Source of the DNA: Ulota crispa
Taxonomy: Eukaryota > Streptophyta > Bryopsida > Orthotrichales > Orthotrichaceae
Direction: 5' to 3'
Length of the DNA stretch: 64,000 bases
Assembly: GCA_963920765.1 (NCBI GenBank)
Contig: OY987251.1
Span: 3,660,501-3,724,500 of the forward strand
Shown here: in pieces, positions 1,042-59,600 of the stretch
Numbering within the stretch: the stretch's first letter is position 1
Layout: every line of letters begins with the position of its first letter
Notes under the pieces: generated by a model
What the model was told of the DNA's origin: nothing
Database searches by the model: none
Seen by the model: only the letters and a program-made list of their open reading frames with translations
Made by a program: the position numbers and the translations under genes

Positions 1042-1359
1042 GGGAAAATTTCATGGATACCCCTGAAGTTTGCCATGTTATCATATTATCATAGATACCC
1101 CTACTTTTTCAGAAATTTCACAAATGCCTTTGTACCAAATTTTCAGGGGTTTGTTTTGTTGTGCATGCCACTTCCCTTCTTTCTTTGTGCACACGCATAA
1201 CAAGAAAGAAGTAGTGTGCGCACAAAGAGAGAAGGAAGTGGCATGCACAACAAAACAAACCCTTGAAAATTTTGGTCCAAGGGTATTTGTGAAATTTCTG
1301 AAAAAGTAGGGTACCTATGATAATATGGCAAACTACAAGGGTGTCCATGAAGTATTCCC
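1042..1359. mobile_element. MULE-like palindromic MITE, copy 1
   Basis: Almost the whole element is an inverted repeat: it starts GGGAAAATTTCATGG and ends in the imperfect complement, and the centre pairs CTTTCTTTGTGC with GCACAAAG. The 9-bp flanks TTAAAACAA (1033-1041) and TTACAACAA (1360-1368) match at 8 of 9 positions, as expected for a Mutator-type target duplication. It has no coding capacity; the short frames inside it are by-products of the palindrome. Confidence 0.85.
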
Positions 1360-1371
1360 TTACAACAAATA

Positions 1372-1694
1372 GGGAAGTTTTTATGGATACCCTTGAAATT
1401 TGCCATATTTACATAGATATCCCTAGTTTTTCAGAAATTACACAAATATTCTTGGTCCATAACTTTGAGGTGCTTGTTATATTGTGCATGCCACTTCTTT
1501 CTTCCATGTGTGCACATTGCTTCTTTTTTGTTCTATTGCACTCCTTGTTTTAACATTGGTCATAAAAGAAATAACATGCATAACAAATCAATCACCTAAA
1601 AATTATGATCCAAAGATATTTGTGCAATTTCTGAAAAACCAGGGGTATCTATACAAATATCGCAAACTTCAAGGGTATCCATAAAAAATTTCCC
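1372..1694. mobile_element. MULE-like palindromic MITE, copy 2
   Basis: This is a more diverged member of the same family, starting GGGAAGTTTTTATGG. Flanks CAACAAATA (1363-1371) and TAACAAAAA (1695-1703) match at 7 of 9. Its left flank overlaps the right target duplication of copy 1, so the two insertions used nearly the same site. Confidence 0.8.
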
Positions 1695-2581
1695 TAACAA
1701 AAACGGGTCTTAAAACCTAGTCTTTGCGAACCATACTTCTCCTAGTGCCTTTGTGCTCACCCTCTGAATAGAGGATCCTTACATCACATATTCCCTTGTG
1801 TGAATTCCTTACCTTCTAAGAAAAGCCTCATTCCAGTACACATTGACTCCCATTCTACTGAACAGGCTTCACATACGACCGAACCCCAAACCTAAAACTC
1901 TAAAACCCTAAACCCTAAACCCTAAAACTCTAAAAACAACACAGTCAAAAACACAATGGCTGACTAACTGGATTTCCTGACAATGAACAACAATCACGAA
2001 AAAAAGGAAGTCATAATAAAAATGTGACAGTCACATCTCACCGAAGCTATCAAGACCTCGTAAGAAGATTCAGCTGTCCATCCCAAAACCGTAAGAATCT
2101 TCAACACGTTGCCTGATTCCTCTGCTTCAGTGATAACATAAAATTCCATTCCCTACAGGTATGCAGAAAACCTAAACGATTAGCAGGTGGGATTACATTA
2201 GAAAACTGCCTTGAAGTACATTAAAATCGGCAAGGTTTACCCTAGAGTACCAAGGCTAAAAGCGAAAATGGTAGAAAATCCAGAAGGCAAGTACACTAAC
2301 GGAGTTTCTTTACTTTTCCTTACATCAGAACTGAAGTAGCTGATCTCATTGCCACAAAGATTTCTAGACATGTGAGTAATTTATGGAATTTCTTCACTGG
2401 GTCTTGAACACCACAATCTACTGTTTGATGGAATTGTATCGGAGTATGTGTGTTTTCAAAGTTTACTTGTAGCACATCCTAGTTGCACAGAAAACAAGTT
2501 GCTCTACAGTCTATAATATAGCCTTTTCTAATTGCATAGGGTTTTCTACGACCGGTTGTACTTGTGTTGGTGTAATTCCAA
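1695..2581. repeat. Intergenic stretch with interstitial telomeric motifs
   Basis: Around 1881-1930 there is a cluster of CCCTAAA units mixed with degenerate CTAAAACT units, the complement of the plant telomere repeat TTTAGGG. Nothing else coding or structured was seen here. Confidence 0.55.
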
Positions 2582-2907
2582 GGGAAAATTTCATGGATAC
2601 CCCTAAAGTTTGCAATATTTACAGAGATACCCCTGCTTTTTCAGAAATTACACAGATACCCTTCGACCATAATTTTTAAGTGATTATTTGTTGTGCATGT
2701 ATTTTCTTCATGACCAATGTTGAAGAAGGGAATGTGATGAAACAAAAAGGAAGCAAAATGCACACAAAGGAAGAAGGGAAGTGGCATGCACAGCAAAACA
2801 AATGCCTAATTTTTTTGGTCCAAGGGTATTTGTGTAATTTCTGAAAAAGCAGGGTATCTTAGTTATGCAAACATTGCAAACCTCAGGGGTATCCATGAAA
2901 TTTTCCC
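2582..2907. mobile_element. MULE-like palindromic MITE, copy 3
   Basis: Ends are GGGAAAATTTC and GAAATTTTCCC. The flanks TAATTCCAA (2573-2581) and TAATTTCAA (2908-2916) match at 8 of 9. It lies about 270 bp upstream of the methyltransferase start, within its probable promoter region. Confidence 0.85.
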
Positions 2908-3181
2908 TAATTTCAACCGCAGCCTCGCACGAAGAACTCAGATTAGGGTTTCGAGAAAACCAACAGAGTGGCAGCGGTCTTCGTGCATCCACGTCTTGGA
3001 TGACAACTCGGACAATGTCGATTGGTTTTTTTCAAGTTTTTGTTTTGTTTTGCAGGACGACATTCGAGTGAGGGTGGAGATCATGTAACTTATGTTGAGT
3101 AAGTTTAGCTCTAATTAAGCCTCTTTCTTTGCAGTTTGCAAGAATGTTGCGAACCCTAAACCCTAAAATTTAAACGTGGAC
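2908..3181 (+). promoter_or_regulatory. Probable promoter/leader of the RsmI-type gene
   Basis: This short region lies between a MITE and the start codon at 3182. It ends with two telo-box-like AACCCTAAA motifs near 3151-3168, an element common in promoters of plant translation-related genes. No clear TATA box was found. A CAG near 3132 could be a leader splice acceptor, but that is only a possibility. Confidence 0.35.
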
Positions 3182-6100
3182 ATGCTGAAGACGATGACGA
3201 TCTCGTTGCTCGCACGAGGCGGCATTGTGTCTCCTGCAAGGGGCTCCTTCTCAGGATCCCCCCGCTCTCCCTACACCGTGCTCGTTGTGAGTAGCAGGTT
3301 ACTTCAACCGGGAGCATGCCACCGTCCTGGTTTAGGGTTTGAGAGCAGGACCCAAGTTCAGTGTCAAGCGAGTGGGGAAGGACTGGCAGATGTGATGCGT
3401 GTCAGGGAGGCACTTGTGGCTGATACCCCCATTGACGAGGAAGCAGAGAATGTCACCTCTGAAGCTTCAATGCTCAAGGTACAACAATTCTTGATCACCT
3501 CTGGGATTGCCAAACTCTCTGTACAGATTCTATATAGGGAAAATTTCATAGATACCCCTGAAGTTTGCAATATTTTCATAGATGTCCCTGCTTTTTCAGA
3601 AATATTACAAATACCCTTGGACCGAAAAAAAATTCAGGCGTTCGTTTTGTTATGCATGTCACTTCCTTCTCCCTTTGTGCGGACACTACTTCTTTCTTGT
3701 TATGCTCGTGCTCAAAGGAAGAAGGGAAATGACATGCACAACAAAACAAACACCTAATTTTTTTGGTCCAAGGGTGTTTGTGAAATTTTTGAAAAAGCAG
3801 GGTATCTATGAAAATATTGCAAACTTTAAGGGTATCCATGAAATTTTTCCTTCTATATACACCCACTTTGTTCATTAGGAGAAGTATATCATTGTACACT
3901 CCCACCATATTTTACCAATTTCACATACTAATGAAACCGCCTATGGCTGGTCCGGGGATGCAACCCCACCAAACCCTAAAAGGCATTCAACAGGTTCTAT
4001 ATACATCATGGATTTGCTGTGGGGTTTTTCTTTGTGTAGGGCAAATTAGAAGGTGGCCTGTACCTGGTTGCAACCCCAATTGGTAACCTTGAAGACATGA
4101 CCTTTCGGTGAGCAGTAGTACTTCTCCAGTCATCATGAAATCAGAAACGAGACGAGTAGCTCCTCTGACAAGTGAGGGTTTAGGGTTTAGGGTTTAAGGA
4201 AAATAAGTAGTTAGTCTTCTGTGCCAATTAAGCAGTTCGATTCATGTTGTTGTGGAATGTGGTCTATTGCAAAATCGCAGGTGTCTCGAAATGCATTTAA
4301 GTTAACTTTCGCGTATCATGGACACTTTGCTTGGTTTGACCTAATTGTTCAACATCTATGAGACTTTTTCATTTTGAGTCTGAAATCCTGGTGCCATTAT
4401 CTTTTACCTAGTGGATATCGGTTTCAACACCTCGGGCCTTCGGTAGAGGATACCAAATTGCATTACTTTCTTTTGTAATCTTTCAGATTGTATTCAAAGG
4501 TTTAGGGTTTAAGGAAATTAAGTAGTTAGTCTGTTCTGCCAATCAAGTAGTTGGGATCGATGCTGTTGTGGTTTAGGGATCTATCGCAAAAATTGCAGAG
4601 GCCTTGAAATGCAATTAAGATAAACTTCACGTATCATAGACACTTTGCTTTGTTTGAGCTAATTGTGAAACATTTAACCCCTAAACGCCCGGCTGATCAC
4701 AGTGCCTGCCTGTCCCTGTCTCTATAGTAGTGTTGGCAAGTGCCCACCCCTTATGATATCAAAAGTTGTAAAAGTCACTAGTGCATGATGTCCTCATGAC
4801 ACCATTGCAAGAAGGGCAGCATAGGACCTAACACCATGTTTGTGAATCTTCTCACAATTTGGGTTACCTAAAAATATCTGAAAAAAATTAGAACTTTTTT
4901 CCATTATACATAAGATTTTCTTGTTATTCAGTGGATAAAAAACGTCCTCTTCGGCGTTAAGAAACTTTTTCATTTCGAGTCTGAAATCTTGGTGCCATCA
5001 GCTTATTACGTAGTGGATATCGGTTTCAACACCTTGGACCTTCGGTAGAGGATACCAGAATGCATGAATTTCTTTTGCAATCTTTCAGATTGTTATTAGG
5101 GTTAGGGTTAGGGTTTAGGGTTTATAGGGTTTTTATGTGAGTATTCAGGCACTTGATTTGTAATGGGCTTTTATGTCAGAGCGGTGCGTGTACTGAAATC
5201 TGCGGAGGTGATCCTTGCTGAGGACACGAGGCATTCAGCAAGGCTTTTGCAGCATTATGATATCATCACTCCCATGGTCAGTACTGCAGTCTTCTCATAT
5301 TTAGGTTGCCAACGCACTAGCAATCTACGGTGGTTTACCAGATTTGATTAAGGAACCTAAATTTGCACTTGCACTTTGGTGGATATTTATAGATGAGCTA
5401 CCATAAGTTCAACGAGTTTGCAAGACGGGATGCTACCATAGAACGCTTGAAACTTGGAGGAATTCTAGCTCTTATAAGCGACGCAGGAATGCCCGGCATC
5501 AGCGATCCTGGCACTGAACTTGTATGCCTTGTTCTCTCTTTCATAAACTCTTGCTGCTTTTGTGCTAGTTTTTTTTTACTTATTCCATGAGAGACCAAGA
5601 ATTTGTGGTTTGAAATTGACCAATTTAAGTGATCATATTGTGATGAATAATGTAGTCAGCTGGGACTAAATTTTATATAACTAGAAATCAACACAAGAAA
5701 GTTGCATATATTAGTCCAAAATTAAAGAAAAGTGGACAAAAGGAATTTTTTTACTGTGCCAGAGCTTCTCACCAGTGGCTCTCTGCTTTGTAGGTGAAGG
5801 CATGTGTGCAATCCAACGTGCGAGTGTTTCCCATTCCTGGTCCTTCTGCTGTCCTCACTGCCTTGGTTGCTTCTGGTTTACCAACAGACGAGTTCACTTT
5901 TGGTGAGTGGCTTTTGCTCAAAATTTGATATTTATTTTACTGTTTAAATAGGATAGGGGGTTTCAAAACTCAGTAGATTTCTGTATATCTGTTTCTCTCC
6001 GCCTCTTTCCTTTTTGAGGAGATGAATCTTGATTTTGCACGGTGGTTTCAAGGCTGGTTTCTTGTTGTCTTCTCACGCGAGAAAGCCCATGCTTGCGCTT

Positions 6101-8049
6101 TTCTGTTTTATTTTTGGTTTTCTCATGAGAAACTTGATTTTACGAGAGAAAATGTCCTTTTCCTCCTGCAAAAACCCTCCTCTCAAGAATACTCTATATT
6201 ACTTAAGGTTTGAAACCCCCTGAAATGCATGAGAGTTTGAAGGTTTCTTATCCTGCTTAAACTTGTAACCCCATCTTATAAAATGCTGAATATTTGTGAT
6301 TTGGTTTCTCTTTCTTTATATGCAGTAATTTGGAATAATAGGAGTCCGCCCTGATGTGTTGCTGTGCAGCTGGATTTCTGCCACTGCAGACCACAACGAG
6401 GAGGAAGAAGCTTGTGTCTGCATCTAAGCAGACGGCAACGCAGATATTTTATGTCCCTCCTCATAAATTGAACAAAACTTTGGAGGACTGTGTGTCGGCT
6501 TTTGGATCATTACGGTGAAACACTAAATTTTGTTTTTCCTTTGATTGCTTTCACTTACCAGAATGGACATTGTAACTATAATGCTCCTGCTTTTTCATCA
6601 ATCATTAAGAAGTTTTGATTCGATGCTGGATCATCTGAGTCAAACTTCTATGCAGTTTCTTGAGCATGTTTGTGACATGGCCATTTTTCAGTTTATTGAG
6701 TTTGTTTGTGACTTGGAATTTTGGTTGAATGATTTGAGTTTGTTTGTGACATAAAAGTTTTGTGATTGAGCAGGCGTTGTGTGGTGGCAAGAGAGATGAC
6801 TAAATTCCACGAAGAGGTGAAATTTTACCTTCTATGGTAGTTTTTTTTGGGAAAATTTCATGTATACCCCGCAGTATTTTCATAGATACTACTGCTTTTT
6901 CAGAAATATCACAAATGCCCTTGGACAAAAAATTCCAGGTGTTTGTTTTGTTGTGCATGTCGGTTCCCTTCTTTCTTTGTGCGCATGCATAACAAGAAAG
7001 AAGTAATGTACGCACAAAGGGAGAAGGAAGTGACATGCATAACAAAACAAACGCCTGAAAATTTGATCCAAGGGTATTTGTGATATTTCTGAAAAAGCAG
7101 GGGTATCCATGAAAATATCGCAAACTTCAGGGGTATCCATGAAATTTTCCTTAGATTTTTTTGCTGTGGTTTTTCAGAGTAACTCAAATTTTCTTACTCA
7201 GTGAATTTCTGCATTGCCTTTGATTCTTCCATTTTGCACCCAATTTGTCGTAGTACTGACTTGGTTTTCTAACACAGATCCAATGCACTTCTGATAAGGT
7301 TATGTGTTTGACATGTTTTCAGTTCTGGCGTGGAACTCTAGAGCAGGCGCAGGAGGAGTTTGAGAAGCGGAATCCTCGTGGAGAGATGACGCTGGTGATT
7401 GAGGGACTTTCGGAGAGTGCAGCTGATGAGTTGCCCTCAGAGGAAGATGTTGAGTCCGAGCTGCGGAGTCTTTTGGACGCTGGGGTTAGTCCGTCTGAGG
7501 TACGAATTTTATTGGAGCCCATTTCTTGTGATATCGTGTTCTTTTTTAAACCCTCGATCGTGCAATCCATTAAGTCTGGTAAATGTGTAAGTTGAGCCTA
7601 GTCTGTACTTCCATGCTTCCATGTCTTGGCATGTTAGTTCTTACAAAGTTTGTAAGGTAGGAGCACCATTTACCAACATGGACCTAATGGCGTCACTTTC
7701 TACACAAGGTAGTCATTGTAGAACTTAAATCTAGGTACACCATAGATAGATAGCTTATTGTTGTTGATCAAGATGATGTGTACCCAGATTTAAGTTCTAG
7801 AATGACTACCTTGCGTAGAGAGTGACGCTATTAGGTAAAATGTTGGTAATAGGTACTCCTACCTTACTCACCATTAGGTACAATGTTGGCAACGGGTGCT
7901 CCTACCTTACTCCTTGCTCTTGCGGGGCAACTGAGATTTTTCTGTGTAATTTGCAGGCTAGCAGACAAGTGGTGGAAGGAACGGGCATGAGGAGGAAGAT
8001 GGTCTACGCACTTGCTTTAAAGTTATCAAAGACTTCAAAAAACTCTTGA
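3182..8049 (+). CDS. rsmI: RsmI-type 16S rRNA (cytidine 2'-O) methyltransferase, nine exons
   Basis: Inferred exons: 3182-3478, 4040-4107, 5180-5276, 5393-5521, 5794-5902, 6370-6514, 6774-6816, 7323-7499 and 7957-8049. All have GT/AG borders and compatible phases, giving 385 residues against about 286 in E. coli RsmI. The extra ~100 N-terminal residues are rich in Ser, Arg and Ala, fitting an organellar transit peptide. Family motifs appear in order: GLYLVATPIGNLEDM (about residues 105-119), AEDTRH, SYHKFNE, the glycine-rich SAM-binding stretch ISDAGMPGISDPG, PIPGPSA and TFAGFLP, then VVAREMTKFHEE. The bacterial enzyme methylates the ribose of C1402 in 16S rRNA; here the likely substrate is plastid or mitochondrial small-subunit rRNA (inference). 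The ATG at 3182 is the first in frame. Introns 1 and 7 carry MULE-like MITEs, and introns 2 and 8 carry other repeats. Confidence 0.93.
3537..3850. mobile_element. MULE-like palindromic MITE, copy 4 (rsmI intron 1)
   Basis: Flanked by a perfect 9-bp duplication, TTCTATATA, at 3528-3536 and 3851-3859. This is the clearest target duplication of the family and the best single proof of transposition. It starts GGGAAAATTTCATAG and lies entirely inside the first intron. Confidence 0.92.
4170..5128 (+). repeat. Tandem duplication with telomere-like junctions (rsmI intron 2)
   Basis: A segment of about 320 bp (roughly 4180-4497) is repeated at roughly 4498-5095. Shared marks include AAGTAGTTAGTCT, ATCATGGACACTTTGCT or a close variant, and GTGGATATCGGTTTCAACAC. 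TTTAGGG or TTAGGG motifs lie at each boundary (about 4170-4196, 4500-4514 and 5098-5128). Copy 2 is longer because it carries an inserted element. Confidence 0.8.
4673..4961. mobile_element. TIR element inserted in duplicate copy 2
   Basis: It starts TTAACCCCTAAACGCC and ends GGCGTTAAG, short imperfect inverted ends. Aligning with the uninterrupted copy 1 (around 4345-4360) shows this block as extra sequence, so copy 1 gives a near-empty site. No coding capacity. The ends place it with the TTAACCC-ended elements elsewhere in the window. Confidence 0.65.
6849..7150. mobile_element. MULE-like palindromic MITE, copy 5 (rsmI intron 7)
   Basis: It has GGGAAAATTTCATG at the left and the complement at the right. 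The flanks are T-rich (TAG followed by a T run on the left, TAGATTTTT on the right), so the target duplication is plausible but not clean. It sits between exons 7 and 8. Confidence 0.8.
7652..7910. mobile_element. Palindromic element with GTAAGGTAGGAG ends (rsmI intron 8)
   Basis: The left arm (7652-7740) and right arm (to 7866) are near-complementary: GTAAGGTAGGAGCACC faces CTCCTACCTTAC. A second partial right end follows directly (about 7867-7910), giving a duplicated terminus. Non-coding. The terminus is shared with the element beginning at 63778 and resembles those at 34685, 43115 and 43518. Confidence 0.75.
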
Positions 8050-12400: not shown

Positions 12401-12489
12401 CAAAAGAATTCAAAGTTTACATAGTTTATTATTTCATACAAGTTGGTAAACCCATTTACCACCGTAAATGCAAGTTTGAGCATAATTAC

Positions 12490-13368
12490 ATGCCCCCCAT
12501 GTGCCCATGTTCCCCATGCCCCATTCCATGTCCCCATCCCATCCCCACGTCCCATCCCCACGTCCCATCTCCACGTCCCATCCCCACGTCCCATCTCCAC
12601 GTCCCATCCCCACGTCCCATCCCCACGTCCCATCCCCACTTCCCATCGCCACTTCCCATCTCCACGTCCCGTCCCCCATCCACGTCCCATCCACATCCCA
12701 TCCCCCATCCACGTCCCATCCCCCATCCACGTCCCATCCCCCATCCACGTCCCATCCCCCATCCATCCCCCATCCCCCATCCATCCACCCCCCATCCCCC
12801 ATCCATCCACCTCCCATCCCCCATCCATCCACCCCCCATCCCCCATCCATCCACCCCCCATCCCCCATCCATCCACCCCCCATCCCCCATCCATCCACAC
12901 CCCCCATCCCCCATCCATCCACCCCCCATCCCCCATCCATCCACCCCCCATCCCCCATCCATCCACCTCCCATCCCCCATCCATCCACCCCCCATCCCCC
13001 ATCCATCCACCCCCCATCCCCCATCCATCCACCCCCCATCCCCCATCCATCCACCCCCCATCCCCCATCCATCCACCCCCCATCCCCCATCCATCCACAC
13101 CCCCCATCCCCCATCCATCCACACCCCCCATCCCCCATCCATCCACACCCCCCATCCATCCATCCACACCCCCCATCCATCCATCCACACCCCCCATCCA
13201 TCCATCCACACCCCCCATCCATCCATCCACACCCCCCATCCATCCACACCCCCCCATCCATCCACACCCCCCATCCATCCACACCCCCCATCCATCCACA
13301 CCCCCCATCCATCCACACCCCCCATCCATCCATCCCCCATCCCCCATCCCCCATCCACCCCCTCTTAT
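12490..13368. repeat. C-rich minisatellite (CCCATCC-based)
   Basis: Almost uninterrupted variants of CCCATCC. It begins with 12-13-bp units (CCCATCCCCACGT) to about 12670, then about 22-bp units (CCCCCCATCCCCCATCCATC) to about 13130, then CATCCATCCACACCCCCC units to the end. Because the array lacks stop codons, five frames on both strands stay open for about 290-340 codons; these are not genes. The G-rich strand has many runs of three to six G and could form quadruplexes. Confidence 0.95.
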
Positions 13369-22692: not shown

Positions 22693-28338
<5,646 letters not shown>

Positions 28339-29574: not shown

Positions 29575-31194
29575 TTCAATGCACCCCCACCTCCGTGCGC
29601 ACGGTCACACAAGCTACTCGACTATCGACACCCTTCACCGTCCACGCCATTATTGTCGACGTCTGCTGTCGTGAACATGTATCATACATCCTCTCCATAC
29701 GTACACAACCGTACATACTTCACTTGCCTTCTTTTAAGCTCTTTCTCTGTCTCCTCCGCTATCGCAATTGCGCATTTCGTCGACAAAAATCCCAAACCGG
29801 AGCTCCTCCTCCGGAGACACAGCCATCGATCGAACCATTGTCTTGCGCGTTTCTGCAATACCGTAACCGCGTAACAAAAACCTTCAAGTTTTTGTTTTAG
29901 TTCTCCGGTTTAGAGTGAAACGCAGTGAGCTAGGGTTTGTGGAAAGGTTGGGGTTAGATTGATTCCCTATCGCAGTTTGCACGATGTAGAATTTAGACAC
30001 CTTGTATGAACGAGTGATCGACGATGGAAGAGCCGTCGCTGGTGCCTGGAAGATCATTTTCTGGAGGAATGGACCTAGCTAGGTAGTGGATTTGGAGAGG
30101 AAGCTGAGATTTGAGATGAACAGGCTTAAGAACGAGGTGACGTGATTGCAATGACGAACGCACTAGAGCTCTGTTGTTCTCAGTCCGGGAGATGGACGAT
30201 CTTTGAAGATTGCGCTTCTCGGCACCGATTTCGGGGTCTTCGTCTTTGATCATGCTCTGTTTTTCTTGCACATATGAATTAGGTCGGGTTCACATCGCAC
30301 TATTGCCGTTTTTTTTGCCTTAGTAGTGTTTAGAACTGGATAGTTGACGTTAATGTTGTTTGTTATCTTATGAATATCTGTAGTCCGCAATACAGTACGA
30401 CTTTTCTGTATTTTTTTCTTCCAACAGTTGCTGCTATTGCTCTGTTCTTAGTCCGGGAGATGGACGATCTTTGAAGATTGCGCCTCTCGGCATCGATTTC
30501 GTGGTCTTCGTCATTGATCATGCTCTGTTTTTGCAGTTGAATTAGGTCGGGTTCACATTGCACAGTGCCGCGTTAATCGATTGTTTTGCCTCTCGGCAGT
30601 TCTTATTAGTGTTTAGAACTGGATAGTTGGCGTTAATGTTGTTTGTGCAATACGACTTCTCTATTTTCTCGTCCGACAGTTGCTGTTATTGATGTTGCAG
30701 ATCGAGTCAGAGTCTGTTAGGTTTTTAGTGAACGTATGTTGTGTATCTAGTTTGGACATTGACAGATATTGAAGGATTTTTTTGTTCGTAAGGTGATAGG
30801 CTCTACCTAATTGTTGAGATATCTGGACGTGAACAGCATTTGAATAGCTTTTCACTTGCCAGTTTTCGTCTGATTTTGAACTCAGAAGGTCGGGTTTGTC
30901 TGCTTCCTGAATCAGCTTATGCTTTCTCACGTTATACCAGTGCTGGTGTACTGTACGTTGACATCGTGAATCCAAAGAGTTGCAGTAAGATTTGTGTGTT
31001 AATAATGACAGGCTAAACTGCAGTGTGTGTGATGGAATCCAGCAATCTATGTGAAAAGGACATGATGGCTGATGGATATGTGTTTTTGTCATTCCAGAGG
31101 CGATTCCTGAATTATTCCAGTGCAAACGTTCAGTTTTCCTCGCTTCAGCCTCGACCTGAGATAGAAGTAGACTTTTTTGACGTCATTTTTCAAT
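29575..31194 (+). promoter_or_regulatory. Promoter/leader region of the golgin gene with internal tandem duplication
   Basis: GC content rises from about 29580, consistent with a promoter and long leader. Within it, about 30170-30435 and 30436-30695 are two copies of a ~260-bp unit: both contain CCGGGAGATGGACGATCTTT, TTAGGTCGGGTTCACAT and AGTGTTTAGAACTGGATAGT and end with CAGTTGCTG. A leader intron is likely, but its borders are not certain. Short frames here show no recognisable protein. Confidence 0.5.
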
Positions 31195-34100
31195 ATGGCA
31201 CCAGCTGATGTGGAAGCCCTGAGGGCTGAGAATGCTCGGCTGGCAACGGAAATGGCATCAATGAAGAAGAAGATGATGCTAGCAATGAAGAAACAGAGTG
31301 CAGAGGTCAAATTAGCGCAGCAAAGAGCTGTCGCAGCTGAGGCTGCGCTTGCTGCTACTTCTAATGGAAGCCTGGATGCGGCCGACTCGTCTTCTGGAAA
31401 TGAAGGAGCTTCTTCTGAAGTCCGGTCGCATCTGCACACTTTAGTGTCTGAGGACAGTAGTGGATTTCGAAATGGCTTTGATTCAGAGATTTCACCTGAG
31501 AAGGAGTACGTCGAGGATCGTGAATCACTTGCTTCAGAAGCTCGTCGGAATGCCGATGAGAAAGAGAAGCTTGATGCTGAGCGCGAAACGCTTGCTTCCG
31601 AAGCTCGCTTACTTGCCGAAGAGAAAGAGAAGTTTGGAGCTGAACGTGAAGCACTTGCTTCAGAAGCTCGTCGGAGCTTTGAAGAGAAAGAGAAGCTTGG
31701 AGCTGAGCGTGAAGCACTTGCTTCAGAAGCTCGTCGGAATGCCGAAGAGAAACTGAAGCTTGATGCTGAGCGTGAAGCACTTGCTCCCGAAACTCGCTTA
31801 CTTGCCGAAGAGAAAGAGAAGTTTGGAGCCGAGCGTGAAGCACTTGCTTCAGAAGCTCATCGGGGTGTTGAAGAGAAAGAGAAGCTTGAAGCTGAGTTTA
31901 GGGAATTGAGGTTGATGTCTGATCAGCTTATGGCGCAGTTGATAGAAAAGAACAGGTCGCTTGAATCTCAGCTGGAGGAAATCACACGCACTAGGGTTGA
32001 GGAGGTTCGATCGTTAGACACCTCTGTACAGCAGCAGCATGAGGGGCCCGGAGAAGGTGAAACACCAGCTTTGGAGGGAGTAAGAACATCTGAAAATGTT
32101 GACGCCCTGCCGAATCCTCTTCTTGAGCAGCAATTGAAAGAAGCAAACGATAAAATACAGATGCTAGAAGATCAGTTACAGAAGCGAGAGGAAAGCCCGC
32201 AGGTCACCGAAGCTGCTGCTGGGGATGCCGACATTTCTCGTCCGGTAGTCGATGATAGAACAACTGACCTCAGTTTAGAGCTTGAGCAAGTGAACAAGCA
32301 GCTAGAAGAGGAGATCACAAAGTACACGGAACTTGATGCCAAATTTGGTCGTTTGCTCAAACGTTCAAAGCAGCGTATTCAAGAGGTTCAAAAGGAGAAG
32401 GATGACTTGGAAGTGCAGTTCAAAGCCTTAGAGGAGAAGGCCACAGAAGCACTCGCCCTGCAGGCTGCATTGCAAGCAGATCTTGACGCCACACGCAACC
32501 GGGCGGGAGATGCTATTCGCAATTTGAATTCCGAACGTCAGCAATTAAACAATTCTCTTCGCAGGGCTAGGCAGGACATCGAAGAGATGCGGCAAGTCAT
32601 GGAAGCCAAGGAGCTCGAGCTTAATGAAATATCAAGTACAGTGTATGAAAAGGAACAGCAAATAGCAGAGCTAGGTTTAAACCTGAAAGAGGCTGAGACG
32701 AATCAAGAGGTTGCAATGTTGGGACTCAAGGAGACCTACCAGAAGGTTGTTGAAAATTACGAGCAGCAGCTGGCGGAGGCTGCCAAAGAATTTATCAAAG
32801 GGGACGAAACTCTTTCCACTTTGCAGGCCCAGCTGGCCGACAAAGAAGCTAAACTGGCAGACGTTGAAGCAGCCAGCAGTGGTGAGCTGGTACGTTTAGG
32901 TGCCTTGTTAGATGCATCTCGAGGAGACATCCAACGGCTTATGTCTGAGCACCAGAAGGAGCTTGATGCAGAAAGAGATGAGCATAAATCAACCGTTTCA
33001 TCGTTGCTGAACAAACTTGAGGCATCTGAGTCGTTGCTAGACCAGGTGGAGATGGCGGCCGGAAGCAGGCGAAACCAGCTTGAATTGGAACTCGAGGGTT
33101 GTCGTCAGATTTTAAGTGCTACTCAAGTCGAGCTTTCTACGGCCAGATCCGAGACTACCATGCAAGCGCAAGAGCTAGCTGCCTACAAGGTGAGGGCTCA
33201 TGCTCTTTTACAGAGAAAAGAGGCAGCGCTGCAGGCTGCCCAAGATCTGTCAACGATGGGAGCATTGGAATCAGCTCTTGAGGACGCAAAGGCACTGGCT
33301 GCAACAGCTACCGCGGCCAGAGACCAAGCAACGAGAAGGCTAGATACAACTGTTGCTGACTATCAGCGCCAGCTTAATGCACAGGCCGGTGTTATTGAAG
33401 AAGCAGATCTCCATATACGAGAGTTGGCTACTCAGCTTGAGCTGAGTAAAGCTTTGGTGAAGTCTCAGCAGATAGAGTATGAAAGGCGCCTTCATCATGT
33501 AGAAGAAACTTTATCCACGAGACCAGAGGTTCCTGCTCCACCAACCTCACCTATGAACGAGGATCTGGAGAGGGAGTTCTCTGCTCTACGCATTGCGGAG
33601 AAGCATTTGAAGGGAGAGTTTGAATCGTACAAGGAAATGACAGATTCCATGATGGCGAACAAGGATGAAGAAATCATGCGCCTGGTTGAGGAGAAAAACT
33701 CTCTGCAGAAGCACCTCTCCCAAAAGGCGCCTACGGATGTGGTGGACAGGGTAGCAATCAGTTCACCACCCCCTCTTCTTGCCGAGCAACAGATCCTGTC
33801 ACTGGCCCGGCTTCAGGCACAGAAAGAGGAAGAAGTAGCCAGATGTCTGCGCCACATTGACGCATTGCAGGACGAAATCAAGGAACTGGAACAGGAGAAT
33901 CGTCTGCGGGTTCACCAGATCACAATTCTGAAAGAAGAGTATCAGAATTCTGAACGAAGTCAGAAGCGGTCCAGTGTGGATATGACGTATGTCAAGAATG
34001 TGATTCTGAAGCTATTGGAAACTGGTGAAGTGGAAGCTCTGCTACCTGTGATAGCAATGCTTCTCCAATTTAGTCCAGAAGAGTTGCGACGATGTCATGA

Positions 34101-34212
34101 GGCCTACAGGATTCAGAGTGTCACTGAAGTTCCTTTAAGCGGGGCCGCCGCAGTTGTGGATGCCGCCGCATCTGCTCCCCGATCGTTGCTTTCAAGATTT
34201 ACGTTAAGCTGA
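31195..34212 (+). CDS. GRIP: GRIP-domain golgin (long coiled-coil protein), single exon
   Basis: The product is 1005 residues. The ATG at 31195 is the first in frame after an upstream in-frame TAG (31168-31170). Nearly the whole chain is predicted coiled coil, rich in Glu, Lys, Leu, Ala and Gln. The GRIP domain lies near the end (about residues 930-975), with YVKNVILKLLETGEVEALLP and AMLLQFSPEELRRCHEAY. In plants and animals this domain binds the small GTPase ARL1 and directs the protein to the trans-Golgi, where the coiled coil tethers vesicles. Arabidopsis GRIP is shorter (about 790 residues), partly because of a repeat block here at residues 112-234. Absence of introns over 3 kb is notable beside the intron-rich neighbours. 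Confidence 0.93.
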   Translation: MAPADVEALRAENARLATEMASMKKKMMLAMKKQSAEVKLAQQRAVAAEAALAATSNGSLDAADSSSGNEGASSEVRSHLHTLVSEDSSGFRNGFDSEISPEKEYVEDRESLASEARRNADEKEKLDAERETLASEARLLAEEKEKFGAEREALASEARRSFEEKEKLGAEREALASEARRNAEEKLKLDAEREALAPETRLLAEEKEKFGAEREALASEAHRGVEEKEKLEAEFRELRLMSDQLMAQLIEKNRSLESQLEEITRTRVEEVRSLDTSVQQQHEGPGEGETPALEGVRTSENVDALPNPLLEQQLKEANDKIQMLEDQLQKREESPQVTEAAAGDADISRPVVDDRTTDLSLELEQVNKQLEEEITKYTELDAKFGRLLKRSKQRIQEVQKEKDDLEVQFKALEEKATEALALQAALQADLDATRNRAGDAIRNLNSERQQLNNSLRRARQDIEEMRQVMEAKELELNEISSTVYEKEQQIAELGLNLKEAETNQEVAMLGLKETYQKVVENYEQQLAEAAKEFIKGDETLSTLQAQLADKEAKLADVEAASSGELVRLGALLDASRGDIQRLMSEHQKELDAERDEHKSTVSSLLNKLEASESLLDQVEMAAGSRRNQLELELEGCRQILSATQVELSTARSETTMQAQELAAYKVRAHALLQRKEAALQAAQDLSTMGALESALEDAKALAATATAARDQATRRLDTTVADYQRQLNAQAGVIEEADLHIRELATQLELSKALVKSQQIEYERRLHHVEETLSTRPEVPAPPTSPMNEDLEREFSALRIAEKHLKGEFESYKEMTDSMMANKDEEIMRLVEEKNSLQKHLSQKAPTDVVDRVAISSPPPLLAEQQILSLARLQAQKEEEVARCLRHIDALQDEIKELEQENRLRVHQITILKEEYQNSERSQKRSSVDMTYVKNVILKLLETGEVEALLPVIAMLLQFSPEELRRCHEAYRIQSVTEVPLSGAAAVVDAAASAPRSLLSRFTLS
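31528..31896 (+). repeat. 63-bp coding repeat, six units, within the golgin
   Basis: Units start at 31528, 31591, 31654, 31717, 31780 and 31843 (the last partial). Each encodes 21 residues, exactly three heptads, of the form LASEARRNAEEKEKLGAERE. Units 1-3 and 4-6 correspond pairwise (RRNA, LLAE, then RRSF/HRGV), suggesting the array doubled from a 189-bp block. The frame and heptad register are preserved. Confidence 0.95.
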
Positions 34213-37849: not shown

Positions 37850-38790
37850 GAGCACTTCTGGCCATTACAACACTATGGGTTATACCAATTTCCTAAATTT
37901 ACAACACATTTGTATAAATGTATTTTATTTCAATTACTAAAAGATAAAATGATAAGCACTTTGTAGTCATTAGAACACTATAGGGTATACCAATTTCCTA
38001 AATTACACAAAATTTGTTCTTTTAATTTACAACAAATTTACATGACCTATTTATGAGGGATAGAAAAATGGGAAAAGTTCATGGGTATCCCTGAAGTCTC
38101 CCATATCTACATAAATACGCTTGGTTTTCCAGAATTTACACAAACATCCTAGGTCCATAATTTTCAGGTGTTTTTTTTGTTATGCATGCAACTTCTTTCA
38201 TTTCCAATGTGCGAATGAGTAGTGCAATAGAACAAAAAAGAAACAACGTGCACACAAGGGAGAAAGAAGTGACATTGCACAATATAACAAACGCCTCAAA
38301 CTTTAAATCAAGGATATTTATATAATTTTTTAAAAATCAAGAGCATCTATGTAAATATGACAAACTTCAAGGATATCCATGAAATTTTCCCTAAGAAAAA
38401 TGAACATGGATATAATTGATATTCTTACACAAAACTAGGAATATTTTTTATATTTGGGTAAATTTGATATTTTGAAAGAACTGAGAGGCATTTCTGATAT
38501 TTTCCCTCTAATTCACAACAAATTTTTGTGACCTATTCATAATGGATAAAAAAAAAATCAGAATAATTCTGTGGTGGAATCGAATTTTTTCATCAGTCTC
38601 TTGATTTAATGATAAGCACTTGTAGTCATTAGAAAACTATAGGGTGTACCAATTTCCTAAATTCCACGACATTTGTTCATTTAATTTACGACAATTCAAA
38701 TTGCTGCGACCTATTCATGAGGAATAAAATAATAATAATAATAAATTCTGTGGGGGATACGAATTCTTCATTAGTCACCTGATTGTGTGC
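37850..38790. repeat. Degenerate direct repeats interrupted by a MITE
   Basis: The phrases ATAAGCACTT, GTAGTCATTAGAA, ACTATAGGGT and TACCAATTTCCTAAAT recur at about 37850, 37945 and 38610, and GACCTATTCATGAGG-like phrases follow each. The second repeat is split by the MITE at 38070-38391. Confidence 0.65.
38070..38391. mobile_element. MULE-like palindromic MITE, copy 7
   Basis: A diverged member starting GGGAAAAGTTCATGG and ending GAAATTTTCCC. The flanks ATAGAAAAAT and TAAGAAAAAT are similar, consistent with an old target duplication. Confidence 0.75.
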
Positions 38791-45972: not shown

Positions 45973-46258
45973 GGGAAAATTTCATGGACACCCCTATAGT
46001 TTGCAATAATTTCATAGATACCCCTACTTCTTTTGGAATTTAACAAATACCTTTGGACCAAAATTCTTGGGCATTTTTTGTTGTGCATGTCACTTCTCTT
46101 CTTTCTTTGTGCCCCTGCAAAGGGAGAAAGAAGTGACATGCACAATAAAACAAATGCCTAAATTTTTTTGTCCAAGGGTATTTGTGAAATTTTTGAAAAA
46201 GGAGGGACCATATCCATGAAAATATTGCAAACTTCAGGGGAATCCATGAAACTTTTCC
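45973..46258. mobile_element. MULE-like palindromic MITE, copy 8
   Basis: Flanks TTCATAATA (45964-45972) and TTAATAATA (46259-46267) match at 8 of 9. The left flank overlaps the end of the preceding TIR element, so this insertion came later. Confidence 0.85.
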
Positions 46259-50520: not shown

Positions 50521-50833
50521 GGGAAAATTTTATGACCGAAGTTTGTCATATTTGTACAGGTACTCCTAGTTTTTCAGAAATTGCACAAATATTTGTGGAC
50601 CATAATTTTTAGGCATTTGTTCAATTGTGCATGTTACTTGTTTCTCTCTTGCGCTCAAGCTGCTTTTTTTGTTCTATTGCACTCCTTGCTTTAACATTGG
50701 TCATGAAGAAAATAGCATGTACAACAAAACAAATGCTTGAGAATTAATGTTCAAGGGTATTTGTGCAATTTCTAAAACCCAGGGATCTCTATACAAATAT
50801 GGCAAACTTCAGTGATATCCATCAAATTTTCCC
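50521..50833. mobile_element. MULE-like palindromic MITE, copy 9
   Basis: Flanks TTGTTTTTA (50512-50520) and TTATTTTTA (50834-50842) match at 8 of 9. It has lost a few bases of the left arm near GACCGAAGTTTG. Confidence 0.85.
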
Positions 50834-51882: not shown

Positions 51883-52203
51883 AGAAAATTTTCATGGATA
51901 CCCTTGAAGTTTGCAATATTTGCAGAGATACCCTTGCTTTTTCAGAAATTGTACAAAAACCCTTGACCATAATTTTTAGGCATTTATTTGTTTTGGTTGT
52001 ACTTCCTTCATGATCAATGTTTAAGGGAAAGTAATGAAACAAAAAAGAAGCAACAAGCACATAAACACAAAGAAAGAAGGGAAGTAGCATGCACAATGAA
52101 ACAAACGTTGAAATTTTTGGTCCAAGGGCATTTGTGCAAATTTGAAAAAGTAGGGGTATCTATGCAAGTATTGCAAACTTCACGTACTCATGAAATTTCC
52201 CTC
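51883..52203. mobile_element. MULE-like palindromic MITE, copy 10
   Basis: The ends are eroded (GAAAATTTTCATGG at the left, GAAATTTCCC at the right) and the flanks are only loosely similar (TTGTTTTTA and TCAGTTTTA). The body is typical of the family. Confidence 0.8.
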
Positions 52204-52400
52204 AGTTTTATGTGATGAACTCCGCTATTACTAATAGATCATGCTTGGTATACCAGGCTTTTCTGTTGAGTGGATTGAGGATGACTCCACCACAACGGCA
52301 TGAGTCCTCAAGGAAATGCAGCAACTCTTGTTTCTTGTGTTCATCTACAATTTTGCCCACCTATGCAACTTGGCAGTTTAACATTCAGTTTAACATTTAG

Positions 52401-52657: not shown

Positions 52658-52769
52658 TAGCCAACAAGAAGCCTTCTTGTTTGAAAAGTAGATAGATTTG
52701 ATATCATGGCTTATTCAACTAAAAGAAAAATAGCATTTTGGAGGAGTTGCTACGCATGCTAAAAAACAC

Positions 52770-53426
52770 CATATCAAGTAAATTGGGAAAAACAAAGGGA
52801 CCATTTTGTACTCCACCTTAATCCTACATACAATAAATACAGGCATAACCATAGCTCAAAGTTGTGATTATTTGAAATTCTTGCATTGAGACTTCACTAT
52901 TGTAAAAGAAAGTGCACACTTGTTTTTGGGAATTGATATGCGCACACTAGGGGGTTGATATTTGCACACCCCCTTGGGAGGTAAATTATAGATGTCTACC
53001 ATCAAAAATCTGAATTTGAGAAATTTGAATTCAGATTTGGACTTAGAGACCATGATTTAATCTAGAACCATAAAAAAAAGTTGCAATTTATCAACACCCA
53101 ATGAAAAAGCTTATCTTTTTTTACAAACAAAAGTAAAAGTAACACTTTTTCCCCTAACTAAGCTTTTTCATTGGATGTTGATAAATTGCAACTTTTTTTA
53201 TAATTCTATACTAAATCATGATCTCTAAGTCCAAATTTGAATTCAAAATTCTCAAATTCAGATTTTTGATTGTAGAAATCTATAATTTACCTCCTAGGGG
53301 GGTGTGCAAATATCAAACCCAGGTATGCACATATCAATTCCCTTGTTTTTTTGTAATATGCTAAATTGTACACAATGACTGAAATAGTGAAAGCCCCATA
53401 ATATACTATTTTTCCCAATTTACCAA
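52770..53426. mobile_element. Fragmented TTGGGAAAAA-ended element carrying a nested palindrome
   Basis: The left part has AAATTGGGAAAAAC followed by CCATTTTGTACTCCACCT. The right part has AATATACTATTTTTCCCAATTT. Between them is a separate palindromic element, so the outer copy was split by a later insertion. Confidence 0.65.
52928..53343. mobile_element. Palindromic element with GGGAATTGATATG ends, copy 1
   Basis: The arms pair from GGGAATTGATATG to CATATCAATTCCC and through AAAGCTTATC / CTAAGCTTTT-type centres. The flanks share TTGTTTTT on both sides, an 8-9 bp target duplication. Non-coding. A second copy is at 61636-62046. Confidence 0.85.
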
Positions 53427-53662
53427 ATATGGTCTTGAAAACAAAGAATTTACAATACAAGAGGGAATTGTTTGACAGGTCTGAGCATCAACATTGACCT
53501 CTTTTTCATCCGAAAGTGTCTCTAACAAGGCAAAACGCCGGGAGAGTGGAGATGCTCCCACGATAATGCCCACAGCACTGCAACGGAGTCTACAACTCTA
53601 CATACAAATCACACAATCGACAAAACTCTTCGGCATATCACCGATCGATCTCTTCTGCAAAC
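53427..53662 (+). promoter_or_regulatory. Proximal promoter/leader of the PPO gene
   Basis: GC-richer than the DNA to its left. In the frame that opens at 53494 there is nothing resembling PPO, so the ATG at 53663, which gives a signal peptide, is preferred. No clear TATA box. Confidence 0.4.
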
Positions 53663-56600
53663 ATGACGACGACGACACCGATCACCGCGTTCCTGGTGGT
53701 ACTAGCACTGACCAGCATCCTCATCACAACAGGACTACCATTCCCAGCGCCAGATCTACAACACTGCCGAAGCACAGAAGACTGCTGCATACTCCCTCTC
53801 GACAACCAATCGCACCCCGCCACGGAGGAGTTCCAGTTCCAGAGCTTCTTACCAATACGACTCCGCCCTGCAGCGAATCTCGTGGACTCCCAGTACGCTA
53901 CCAAAGTGTGAACATGTAACCTTAGTGTTGTTGGTTAATATGGGTACAATGGCTGTTTGCTCTTTAAAAATTCACACCTTATTCTCGCAGTATCCAAATA
54001 ATACATTCCAAAGTGCAAATTTTTTATTTTTGTGTTGCTAACATGCTCCTATAATTTGCTAGGTAGATGTTTGTTTGTTAATAGTCATCATGTTCAAAAC
54101 CTTAAACTAACGCTTATGAGTGTTCCTACCTAAGTTGCAGAAGGCGTACGAGCTCATGCGCTCTCTTCCTGACTCGGACGGGCGGTCTCTGAAGAACCAG
54201 GCCAAGCTGCACTGCGCCTACTGCGACAACTGCTTCTATTTCGAAGGGAACCAGTCGGGGAACCAGTCGGGGAACGGAGAGGGGAACGAGGTGTATCCTT
54301 TGGAGATCCACCAGAACTGGTTGTTTCTGCCCTGGCATCGACTGTTTTTGTATTTTCATGAACGCATTCTGGCAAGGTTGCTGGATGATGACAGCTTCGC
54401 TCTTCCGTTTTGGTACTGGGATGATACTTCGATGGGTTTGGGGTCTGGAGGAATGCTGCCTGCTGTGTATGCTGGCTATGGAGATAATGCTTCGTCTTTG
54501 TTTGATCCGGATCGGAATGCGTGTGCACAGCGACCGCATATTGTCGACTTGGTGAATCCATTTGTAGGTGAGTGGGAGTAAGTTAGTTGAGATTGATATT
54601 AATTGTTTTGTGAAAATGGCGAAGATGTGTGTAGAAGCTACTAGATTTGTCCTTGGTTTTTTTAAGGGAAAATTTCATGGATACCCCTGAAGTTTGCAAT
54701 ATTTTCATAAATACATACCCCTGCTTTTTCAGAAATTACTCAAATATCCTTGGATCAAGGCTCTTTTTGTTGTTGTGCATGTCACTTCCTTTCTCCCTTT
54801 ACACTATTCTTTTTTTGTTTTGAGTGTGCACAAAGAAAGAAGGAAAGTGGCATGCACAAAAAAAAACACTTGAAAATTTTGGTCCAAGGGTATGTGTGAA
54901 ATTTCTGAAAAAGCAGGGTATCTATGAAAATATTGCAAACTTCAGGGGTATCCATGAAATTTTCCCTTTGTTTTAATGTTATTTATGGCCATGGGTATTT
55001 TATGAGAGTGTGAACGGAAGCTTTTGCTGATGGGAGGATGAGGATTATTATGCCTTGGAGCTGAATCGGCTGGGGTCTAAATTAGTCGGTTTTGGACTAA
55101 TTGGTGGCTAATTTAAGGGAAAGATTCATGGATACCTTCAAGTTTGGCATCTTTACATAGATACCCCTGAACTTTGGCATATTTGCACAGATACCCCAGG
55201 CATGCTTTTTCAGAAATTGTACAAATACATTTGGTTCATAACTTTCAAGCGTTTGTTTTGTTATGCTTGCTATTTCTTTCATGACCAATGTTAAAACAAG
55301 GAGTGCAATAGAATAGAAAAGAAGCAACATTCACACATAGGAGAAAGAAGTAGCGTGTATAACAAAACAAACGCCTAGAAATTATAGACCAAGGGTATTT
55401 TGTAATTTCTGAAAAACCAATGGTATCTATGTAAAAATGGTAAACTTCAAGGGTGTCCACGAAAATTTCCCTAGGTACTAATAATGCAAATTTCAGCTTT
55501 GTGGAAATGAATAGTTTTTTTATTAAGCATATAGATGATCTGGTATAAAAGGGAAATTTAGAAATCGGCTTCCTCCAAACTTCAAACTCCTCTGGGTTAA
55601 AACGGGAGAAGACGGGTTAAAAGCGGCTTTGAAGTGAGCTCAAAAGGGGGCCAATCCTACTCCTTAGTTTAAGACTTTAAGTTAATAACTCCAATTCTTA
55701 CCCACACATGGGTTGCTCATTCTTTTACGCTAAACAACCCTTTCAATTTGTATACCGGTAGTCCAGTACTTGGATTGAGCATTTGGGCTATCTATTGGCA
55801 CACAGAGATACATACATCATGACTCCCTTCTAGAAGTCCATAGAATAGATTTTCGGTAACTGGATTTTCAAATTTCGTTTTTCTCTGAAAAACTCGCAGC
55901 GAAAAAAACCTACATCTCGAAGAGCCAACCAAAAGCAAAAGGGGGCAATGTTACCTTATTCTCAGAGAATCCTCCTTCGATGTGACATTTCTTTTTGGAA
56001 GGCCCCTCTCTTTTTGCCTCTTCAACCCTTTTCTTCCTCACATCCTTTTCAAGTCTCTCTCAAGGATGGATTCCCGTCAAAGTTTCATCAGTGGTTTTTC
56101 AAAGAACACGTCGAAAGTGGTATTTTGAAAACTGAAACCAAGAGGCAGTGTGGACGTCCACTAATGGGTTCAAACTGAATGAGACTCTGCTTAACCATGC
56201 TTCCTTTGGTAGCAAATCAATCCATTCCTGGATTGATATTCATTAATTTGAGAAAAGTAAATGCAATTTTTGGTATTTTGGATTTTATGTTTTTAAGAGG
56301 TTTTTGGTAATTTAGAGTGAATTTTAGGATGATTTCTTCAAGACCTTACAACAATAGGGTAGTCACACCTTCTGCGAGATTAAATTTTTTGTGAAGAATG
56401 AGAATCATGGGAGAGGCATTAGGAGCCAATGGGAGCAGTTCTTGCATGAAAAAGGTGTGACTTCCCTTTTGCAGGTGATGGAGAACAGAGAATGGAGAAC
56501 TGGTAAAACAGACACAGGCACAGAGATTTATTGAAAGTAAGAGAGTGATTACTAAGAACAGAAAGGTGGTGGGTATGCTCACAAAGTGTTTTCAGCTTGA

Positions 56601-59600
56601 TTCTTCACCCATAGAAGAGAAAACCTTCTCAATCTTCAGAGAATGGGACTCCTTCCAATCGTGGACGGTCTGCCATGTCCTCATTCTTTGAAGATTGAGA
56701 ATGGGGGTGGAAAAGTCATAGGGGTGGAGAAGCTGTGACAAACCCTTTCATGAAATATCTTGAAAAACTTATCAAAGAACTCACATCAAATCACTGAAAT
56801 ATTCTCGTGTACACAAAAATTTGGTATCCCAACTTTTTCCCAAATTAACGAGGGAAAATTTCATGGATACCCTTGAAGTTTGCAGTATTTACACAAATAC
56901 CCTTGCTTTTTCCAGAAATTTCACAGATACCGTTGGACTAAAAGTTTCAAGTGTTTTTTTTTTGTTGTGCATGCCACTTCCCTTCTCCCCTTGTGGACAC
57001 ACTACTTCTTTCTTCTTATGGTTGCGCACAAGAAAAAAGGAAGATGGCATGCACAACAAAAAAAAAAAAAAACACTTGAAAATTTTGGGCATTTGTGAAA
57101 TTTTTGAAAAAGCACAAATATCCATGAAAATAATGCAAACTTCAGGGGTATGTATCCATGAAAGTTTCCCAATTTACTAATATCGTGTTTCTGAGACTTA
57201 GCAAAAGCAACAACAGAATCTGCCAGCTAAGATTGCTTAAACACAAGGTCGGGTGAATGAATGTGAAGATGTCGACAACAACTCATAACATATACTGCAA
57301 TTGGATAATGTAATGCATGAGCAGGATGCCTGGCGAACAAGACGGACGAGGAACTGCGAAGCGAGAACGCGCACGTGATGTACACGCACGTGGTGGCGGG
57401 GGGAGTGACGCCGTCTCTTTTCTTCGGAAGGCCGTACCGGTGGGGGGAGGAGGGGGGCGTGGGAGGGGGCACTCTGGAGGTGAAGCCGCATGCGCCCGTG
57501 CATCTCTGGGTGAATGTGGTGAAGATGCTCACCAACAGGCTGTCGGCGTCGGACCCCGTCTTCTTCGCCCACCATGCCAACGTGGATCGGCTGTGGAGCC
57601 TGTGGAAGGGATTGCCCGGGGGGGTCAGGCAGGATGTGTCGGATCCCGACTGGTTGCACTCGCAGTTCACGTTCTTCGATGAACGCGGCCGCCTCGTGTA
57701 TGCGAGTGTGGCTCAGTCTCTTGACACCGACAAGTTAAGGTACAGTCACCCGCTTCATAATAACCTTACAGCATTTCGAGTCCTGGTGATCACATTCAGT
57801 AGGGGCTTCAAACATCAATTTTTTCAGGTGACTCTTGTTGCGATTTACCTCGGTGCATTCACTAGTGAACAGCGAGGTGAGCCACTCCTAGAATTCACTC
57901 TTACCAAAACTCACTTTAGCACAACTCATAGGTGCCTCAGACACTAAGACCCCTGATTTGTGCACAAAACCCTAACTGCAAACTCACTACTGTCCTAAAT
58001 TTTGGGCATGCCATTGAACAAAAATAATGCACTAGTGAACTGTGGGACCTATGAGGTGAGAAACTCGTAGACCATATTTTATGTTTGAAGCCCCCTAATA
58101 TATAAACATGGTTGTCACCTTGAATTGCCTGACATCTGCTCACCCGTTTGCCCAAAGTGCCCAATTGAGCTCATGTCCATCTAATGTAGTCAATTCATAA
58201 TTGATTTTTGAAAATGATAAAAATGATTTAGAAAATTTACTCTATAGGTGACACTCGACAGTCAACATTGGAGTCAAAATGTGGATTTGAAGCCATATTG
58301 CATAGTGAAAAGGAAAAAAATAGTAATTTGATTCTTCTCTTTTAAAGTCAAAATCTTAGAAATTCTTTAAATAGGGAGAGTGGACGGACATGTTTGTTTG
58401 TGCCATCTGTTTTGTGCATTTGTCTATGCTGTCCGACATCCATTCTTGCCTGAAGTAACAACCATGATATATAATAGGCTTAGGCATGTTTTCACAACCC
58501 CAGATTCTACATTTTGGGACAATTTGACACATTTTGGACAAACATCAATTTCCATAATGCCATGACTTGGGCGCGATTTGGGCCACGTAAACTAAAAAAT
58601 GAATCTACATTTTCCCTGTAGTGTGGATTGGAATTGGACGGAATAGGACTAGTGTGAAGATTATGTCACTATTGACGCAAGATTGCCACCAACTTAACAA
58701 AATTGAGTTTGAAAACAACTAATGTCAATTTCACTGGTCTGGCAATTGCCATTACTTGGGCACGGTTTTGGCTATGCGGCCTAAACGCACAAACTTAAAA
58801 ATCTATTTAGATCTTAGATTATGGAATGAGACTGGAACGCGTTATTCATTAAATTGGGGAAAAACTTACATATTGGAATTTTTTAATCTTTCAATTTTAA
58901 AAGTTTTAAGGTGATGTAGGGTGAAAATTATGATGATCTTTTCAAGACCTTACATCAATGATGAAACACCTTACATGAATTATCAAAAAATTCACTTCAA
59001 ATCATCAAATATTCTCACAAATACAAAATTTAGTATCCAAAATACGTTTTGGGAAAGGGTGTTCCCAATTTAATGAACAACGTATTTTGGACTCTTGTGA
59101 GACAAATATCACTAATTTTGGAGTATGAATAACACCAATTTAACACAATTGACTTTAATTGTTATGAGTAATGTTTTGGGAACATGCAATAGTTACTTTA
59201 ATTCACTCTTGGGATAATTTGTGAAATTATTTTCAAATTGCAAGTGTCAATTTGTGTCAATCATTTAAACAAAATTTCCTCTTGGACACTTGGTAAGACT
59301 TTCCTTTCTGATTCTTAATGTTAGAAACAAGCTATTGTCAATTTTGCTAAATTAGTGCTATGCCAATACTCCATAGCAGTTCAACTTAAACAACCTAACA
59401 ACACAAAATTTGTTAATTTGGGAAAAATGGTACATTTTGGGACTTTCAAAAATTTGAGGGGATCACCTCAAACTGAGCTCAATGTTTTTTTTCTGTATAC
59501 ATGCCCTCACTTGAGAGGAGGAATTTGTGAGGGAAAAAATCTTAGCGGATCAGATTAAATCTGATATCTTCAAATCTGATTTAAATTAACTTTTTGGGTT

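Follow-up and report, generated by a model that had tools for sequence, protein, structure and literature searches.

Within 64,000 bp of the genome of the moss Ulota crispa (contig OY987251.1 of assembly GCA_963920765.1, positions 3,660,501 to 3,724,500; this whole stretch is referred to below as the window), near-palindromic sequences of one family occur thirteen times, which raises the question of what kind of element they are and what moves them. A preliminary description had proposed miniature inverted-repeat transposable elements (MITEs) of a non-autonomous family of Mutator-like elements (MULEs), with 9-bp target-site duplications (TSDs) and terminal inverted repeats (TIRs) that meet in the middle. 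Our analysis supports this assignment, and we consider it very probable that the copies belong to a high-copy, non-autonomous MITE family of the Mutator-like type. The support comes from 9-bp duplications across the genome and from a transposase-bearing MULE with like ends; neither of the two outcomes named beforehand as refuting the assignment was observed.

A profile was built from the 13 named copies (designated here by their first window position) and searched against the window on both strands. All 13 copies were recovered (best E 1.4e-92, weakest 4.1e-58); their lengths of 286-355 bp agree with the approximately 290-355 bp given before. Apart from these, the search gave only a match split off at the left end of copy 55117 and one row at chance level (E 3.9). 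As the profile was derived from the same 13 copies, much older relatives could escape it. A typical copy is ~312 bp long and consists of an inverted arm pair around a short centre. In copy 55117 the left end is partly repeated: 55117-55169 corresponds to profile positions 1-54, and 55153-55471 to positions 8-312. The near-palindromic character was borne out by folding of a single copy, 54666, which gave -163 kcal/mol vs -63 kcal/mol for 100 shuffles (z = -21.8).

Target-site duplications and copy number

The left and right flanks of 47 copies (the 13 window copies, 29 genome loci picked by similarity to copy 3537 and fetched, and five copies met by chance) were compared at lengths 3 to 14, with 2,000 re-pairings of these flanks as the control. 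At a length of 9 the flanks matched at 7.47 of 9 positions vs 4.08 of 9 after shuffling (z = 16.2); the next-best length was 10 (z = 5.2), and z did not exceed 3.1 at any other length. Perfect 9-bp duplications were present in 15 copies, and at least 8 of 9 positions matched in 30. The set was then revised to 48 copies by removing L016, whose edge had been mis-set, and adding L086 and the copy inside the C2 MULE described below. In this set, flanks matched at 7 or more positions in 37 copies, i.e. in 8/13 in the window and 29/35 elsewhere in the genome, where 14 of the 35 have a perfect duplication. Since copies outside the window carry the 9-bp duplication as well, the possibility raised beforehand that it would be missing genome-wide does not hold. 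The window proportion compares with 5.1% of unmatched left/right pairs drawn from the 48 copies (binomial P 5e-8); the remaining five window copies score 6, 5, 5, 4 and 2 of 9. The flank counts given before were reproduced (9/9 at 3537; 8/9 at 1042, 2582, 45973 and 50521; 7/9 at 56852); the 7/9 at 1372 holds once the end is set at 1694, and copy 54666 is a further 7/9 case. In these 37 copies the duplicated target follows T-W-N-W-W-W-N-W-A, with T occupying the first position in 79% (strands pooled).

For the genome-wide search (274.8 Mb, 157 contigs), copy 3537 was used as the query, and copies were found dispersed over contigs C1 to C11. The arm 22-mer CATGGATACCCCTGAAGTTTGC has 1,804 exact matches in the genome (its reversed control, 0), which taken alone sets a minimum of about 900 copies, on the assumption that both arms match. 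Among 20 copies unselected by similarity (13 window copies and seven incidental ones, two of the latter being one shared insertion), this 22-mer was exact in 8/40 arms, suggesting about 4,500 copies; the flanks of the 29 fetched loci contained three extra copies in about 87 kb, suggesting about 9,500. The estimated total is thus 4,500-9,500 copies, or roughly 0.5-1% of the genome, from small samples. The density of about one copy per 5 kb stated earlier is right for the window (one per 4.9 kb) but probably not for the genome, given the three extra copies in ~87 kb; the window is estimated to be several times denser.

Transposase-bearing relatives and rival explanations

The preliminary description had called for a MULE transposase whose TIR begins GGGAAAATTTC. 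A domain search of the genome with PF10551 gave 54 MULE transposase matches, and five further loci were added via a protein search. A transposase-bearing element with like ends was found on contig C2 (7,036 bp, C2:28134589-28141624, i.e. 860-7895 of the stretch C2:28133730-28143600). This C2 MULE has 324-bp TIRs (92% identical) and a perfect 9-bp TSD, TTTCTTTTA, and its open frames encode PF10551 (E 8.4e-13) and the MuDR DNA-binding domain PF03108 (E 3.8e-9). Its termini, GGGAAAATTTTATGGATA and GGGAAAATTGTATGGATA, are like the MITE ends but do not begin exactly with GGGAAAATTTC, the terminal 11-mers differing from it by one and two bases. Ungapped comparison of its TIRs with the MITE arm consensus gave 69/85 and 68/85 identities (1,000 shuffles, at most 38), and both ends were matched by the MITE profile (E 1.9e-22 and 5.7e-20). 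A sister element on C1 is 92% identical to it over 5,578 bp, with 69/85 identities between its 5' TIR and the arm.

Other MULEs matched the arm more weakly in the same register. A more distant element on C9 (L063; 3,187 bp, TIR GGGAAAATATCA, perfect TSD TAATTTAAA) gave 45 and 50 of 85, L071 45 and 52, L065 44, L066 45, and the two ends of E046 30 and 55; shuffle maxima across the scored MULE ends were 36-41. The 5' end of E046 is within chance, as its shuffles reach 39. A matching TIR was not found within about 3 kb of E049, E050, E052 and E054, nor in the 4.8-kb stretches of L067 and L070. The inverted repeats of L033, L036 and L045 were rejected as partners, being unlike the MITE. On C1, two arms that face each other across 2.7 kb (L089, C1:26724430-26727190) had suggested a longer partner, which was rejected too: these are two separate MITEs around other coding sequence, resembling that of a lipoxygenase. 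MITE copies are also nested in other MULEs (L061, L062 and the C2 element). The MITE inside the C2 MULE did not define a subfamily, its diagnostic 24-mer occurring at only two places in the genome, namely in this copy and at C1:24886068, by coordinates the equivalent site in the C1 sister.

In the proposed mechanism, the MITE arms would be MULE ends recognised by transposase, and the ~30-bp subrepeats that each arm holds (CATGGATACCCC..., CATAGATACCCC..., CACAAATACCC...) may be its binding sites. A MuDR-type transposase from full-length relatives would excise the MITE and reinsert it elsewhere, creating the 9-bp duplication, and each copy would decay once inserted. Among the full-length relatives detected, the C2 element and its C1 sister stand closest; the true source may be a sister that has been lost or that lies outside the stretches inspected.

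Several points weigh against a Mutator-like assignment with these relatives. Mobilisation of the MITE by a MULE transposase is what we infer from sequence, and 33 of the 54 PF10551 loci were inspected (30 at ±1.5 kb; longer stretches were covered for 15 of the 33). The likeness between the C2 TIRs and the MITE arm fades beyond ~90 bp, and farther inward the alignment needs gaps; as a consequence, no MULE was found that gives the MITE by simple internal deletion. The C2 TIRs are 92% alike vs 97% for the arms of some search-selected MITEs, so this C2 copy may predate the last MITE burst, and an in-frame stop lies between its PF03108 and PF10551 frames (in an intron-less reading). The C1 sister was compared by its 5' end only, its 3' end lying outside the sequence inspected. 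Finally, flanks match at fewer than 7 of 9 positions in 11/48 copies, in two of them (L061 and L062) owing to edge placement. Because the likeness ends after ~90 bp, we rank the C2 MULE as a close relative and a possible mobiliser of the MITE rather than as its proven parent.

Could another element have moved the MITE? A 5.6-kb MULE present on C2 and C8 hosts a MITE copy, at the equivalent place in both MULE copies, which would suit it as the mobilising element. Its TIR (GGGAATTGCTAAAGCC...), however, matches the arm at 22/85 positions only (shuffle mean 21.5), and the inner MITE has its own 8/9 duplication (8/9 or 2/9 in L061/L062, depending on the edges chosen), for which reason it looks like a nested passenger. 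We therefore rejected this MULE (L031/L032, the same as L061/L062) as a partner, and regard a role for it as very unlikely. Its two copies (L061 1531-7113 on C2 and L062 2889-8457 on C8) have ~1.08-kb TIRs that are 99.4-99.9% identical, and thus it was probably active recently.

That the family should be placed in a superfamily other than MULEs, one with comparable duplications, is highly improbable (no search was aimed at Merlin transposases); its resemblance to MULE ends would then reflect convergence on a GGG start and AT-rich sequence. Merlin would be the nearest such superfamily; its target duplications are 8-9 bp long, and the first three bases alone are undiagnostic. Convergence is at odds with the 69 of 85 positions that agree without gaps with a TIR of a MULE in which both PF10551 and PF03108 are encoded (no shuffle exceeded 38), and with the profile matches at both termini of that element, next to a perfect 9-bp TSD. 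That the copies are inverted-duplication or foldback remnants spread by recombination rather than transposition would suit the near-perfect palindromes and such close neighbours as 1042 and 1372 or the two copies in L021, but has a negligible probability in view of the common sharp ends, the length-specific 9-bp duplication and the dispersed sites on C1 to C11.

Paired variation in the two arms

In the oriented majority arms of the 48 copies, positions 1-112 are identical, and 15 of the next 48 positions differ. The earlier statement that the TIRs meet in the middle is thus slightly too strong.

Homogenisation of the arms within individual copies was unsupported: a copy's own other arm had a median rank of 32 of 95 among the relatives and came first for only 2/96 arms. 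Changes present on both arms of a copy but on no other arm numbered 4 vs 0.64 expected, permutations reaching 6, and decay after insertion looks independent between the arms of a copy. Substitutions common to both arms numbered 133 vs 72 expected (the largest of 5,000 permutations, 112), and transversions 67 vs 24 expected (largest permutation, 49).

Such pairing is seen at arm position 33, where exact 19-mers occur in the genome 412 times in the C form and 1,166 times in the A form. Among the matches listed, the stretch covered for both forms (C1 as far as 27.6 Mb) has 45 places of the C form and 100 of the A form. In it, 28 pairs of arms face each other at a distance of 200-400 bp, of which 13 are C/C, 15 A/A and none mixed (Fisher 2.7e-8). 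The 48-copy alignment gave 5 C/C, 38 A/A and 1 mixed (44 copies aligned there). Sites 68, 40 and 93 are associated between arms as well, and many other variable sites are unassociated. The C-type copies 1042 and L086 keep the inner asymmetry of the family at positions 126 and 133; in 38070, 55117 and 50521 it is missing at position 126, 133 or both.

It thus looks as though both outer arms are altered jointly in source copies that are mobile. It is possible, though on balance doubtful, that the outer arms evolve in concert in such source copies and that subfamilies are set apart by substitutions paired across the arms; on this reading, the fixed inner-arm differences kept by two of the five C-type copies would look like the mark of a single palindromic founder that later altered both outer arms alike. 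The paired arms could also be accounted for by independent origins from distinct MULE TIR pairs, or by selection keeping the two ends matched. If concerted evolution is true, it would mean arm-to-arm gene conversion or template switching in mobile copies, limited to the outer ~110 bp, or alternatively strong selection matching both ends to a changing transposase.

Precedents and genomic surroundings

No description of this family was found in the accessible portions of the literature on Mutator-like or foldback MITEs and on mosses and bryophytes. According to a survey covering 207 plant genomes (four from bryophytes), Mutator makes up 41.5% of MITEs, and no family with these ends appears in its accessible part (PMC12550479). 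According to the available account of MuTAnT from Medicago truncatula, it is a 292-bp foldback element with 144-bp modular TIRs and 9-nt target duplications, and is related to a putative autonomous element of mudrA type (4,873 bp); the same account also mentions FARE and Jittery (PMC4486113). The present family is like it in foldback design, modular TIRs, duplication length, G-run start and mudrA-type relative, but differs in the end sequence (TIR mask GGGGTTTGCTAGAACA vs arm consensus GGGAAAATTTCATGGA, compared by eye), in targets (TA microsatellites vs AT-rich sites that by eye are not TA repeats) and in number (218 elements vs an estimated several thousand) (PMC4486113). The Tm1 Mutator/Foldback family of root-knot nematodes (39 and 22 elements in two species) has, as far as its account was available, composite subrepeat TIRs, MITE-like members, mostly 9-bp duplications and a Phantom-type MULE transposase; its end motifs are different, and no target consensus is reported there (PMC3169594). 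Because MuTAnT and Tm1 are close precedents, the family described here is new but of an already known kind, the palindromic Mutator-type MITE.

Apparently, 5/13 window copies lie between exons of genes (Table 1). Three are flanked by two parts of a single tyrosinase/polyphenol oxidase gene: tyrosinase profile positions 22-65 match at 54252-54428 and 158-212 at 57444-57608, and PPO1_DWL was matched too. This gene (54120-57944) is split by a ~2.7-kb interval with the three MITEs. There are 13 tyrosinase matches in the genome, and seven others extend over most of the domain within a single open frame. A polyphenol oxidase gene, split genes and TTTAGGG-type repeats are in keeping with a land-plant genome. 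Two further copies, 3537 and 6849, lie between peptides that presumably belong to an RsmI-type methyltransferase.

Table 1. Copies of the MITE family and the duplicated target of copy 3537 (window coordinates).
Feature	Position	Strand	Length	Flanks	Remarks
MITE copy	1042..1359	.	318 bp	ttaaaacaa / ttacaacaa (8/9)	position-33 C-type, both arms
MITE copy	1372..1694	.	323 bp	7/9	given end 1694
MITE copy	2582..2907	.	326 bp	taattccaa / taatttcaa (8/9)	
Left TSD TTCTATATA of copy 3537	3528..3536	.			
MITE copy	3537..3850	.	314 bp	9/9	apparently between exons, presumably RsmI-like gene
Right TSD TTCTATATA of copy 3537	3851..3859	.			
MITE copy	6849..7151	.	303 bp	5/9 ungapped	apparently between exons, presumably RsmI-like gene
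MITE copy	27365..27674	.	310 bp	4/9	
MITE copy	38070..38391	.	322 bp	6/9 ungapped	C-type, both arms
MITE copy	45973..46258	.	286 bp	8/9	
MITE copy	50521..50833	.	313 bp	8/9	C-type, both arms
MITE copy	51883..52202	.	320 bp	5/9	
MITE copy	54666..54966	.	301 bp	7/9	between two tyrosinase-domain pieces; hairpin z -21.8
MITE copy	55117..55471	.	355 bp	2/9	C-type, both arms; additional left-end stretch
MITE copy	56852..57170	.	319 bp	7/9	between two tyrosinase-domain pieces

Other repeats are present in the window. A CCATCCACCCCCCATCC-type tandem array with strong strand bias (12513-13360) is open in several frames. An in-frame 63-bp/189-bp tandem repeat lies in a long open frame (31171-34209) whose product has a GRIP domain at its C-terminus. 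A 59-bp inverted repeat (92% complementary) adjoins a 43-bp tandem repeat (7682-7836 and 7830-7912); by eye, this region (7682-7912) resembles the GGTAGGAGCACCCATAAGC repeat bordering the C1 MULE (E053 690-855), which seems to have inserted into a copy of that repeat.

Transcripts of plant MITEs can form hairpins that feed small RNAs, according to the available part of a review of these elements (PMC12595863). RNA of the present MITE is predicted to fold into a near-perfect hairpin, and its several thousand (estimated) insertions are possible sources of double-stranded RNA. With this family, a high-copy palindromic MITE is tied to a like-ended, transposase-bearing MULE of the same genome, and its paired arm variation offers a natural test of what keeps the two ends of a DNA transposon matching: conversion, repeated rebirth from parental TIRs or selection.

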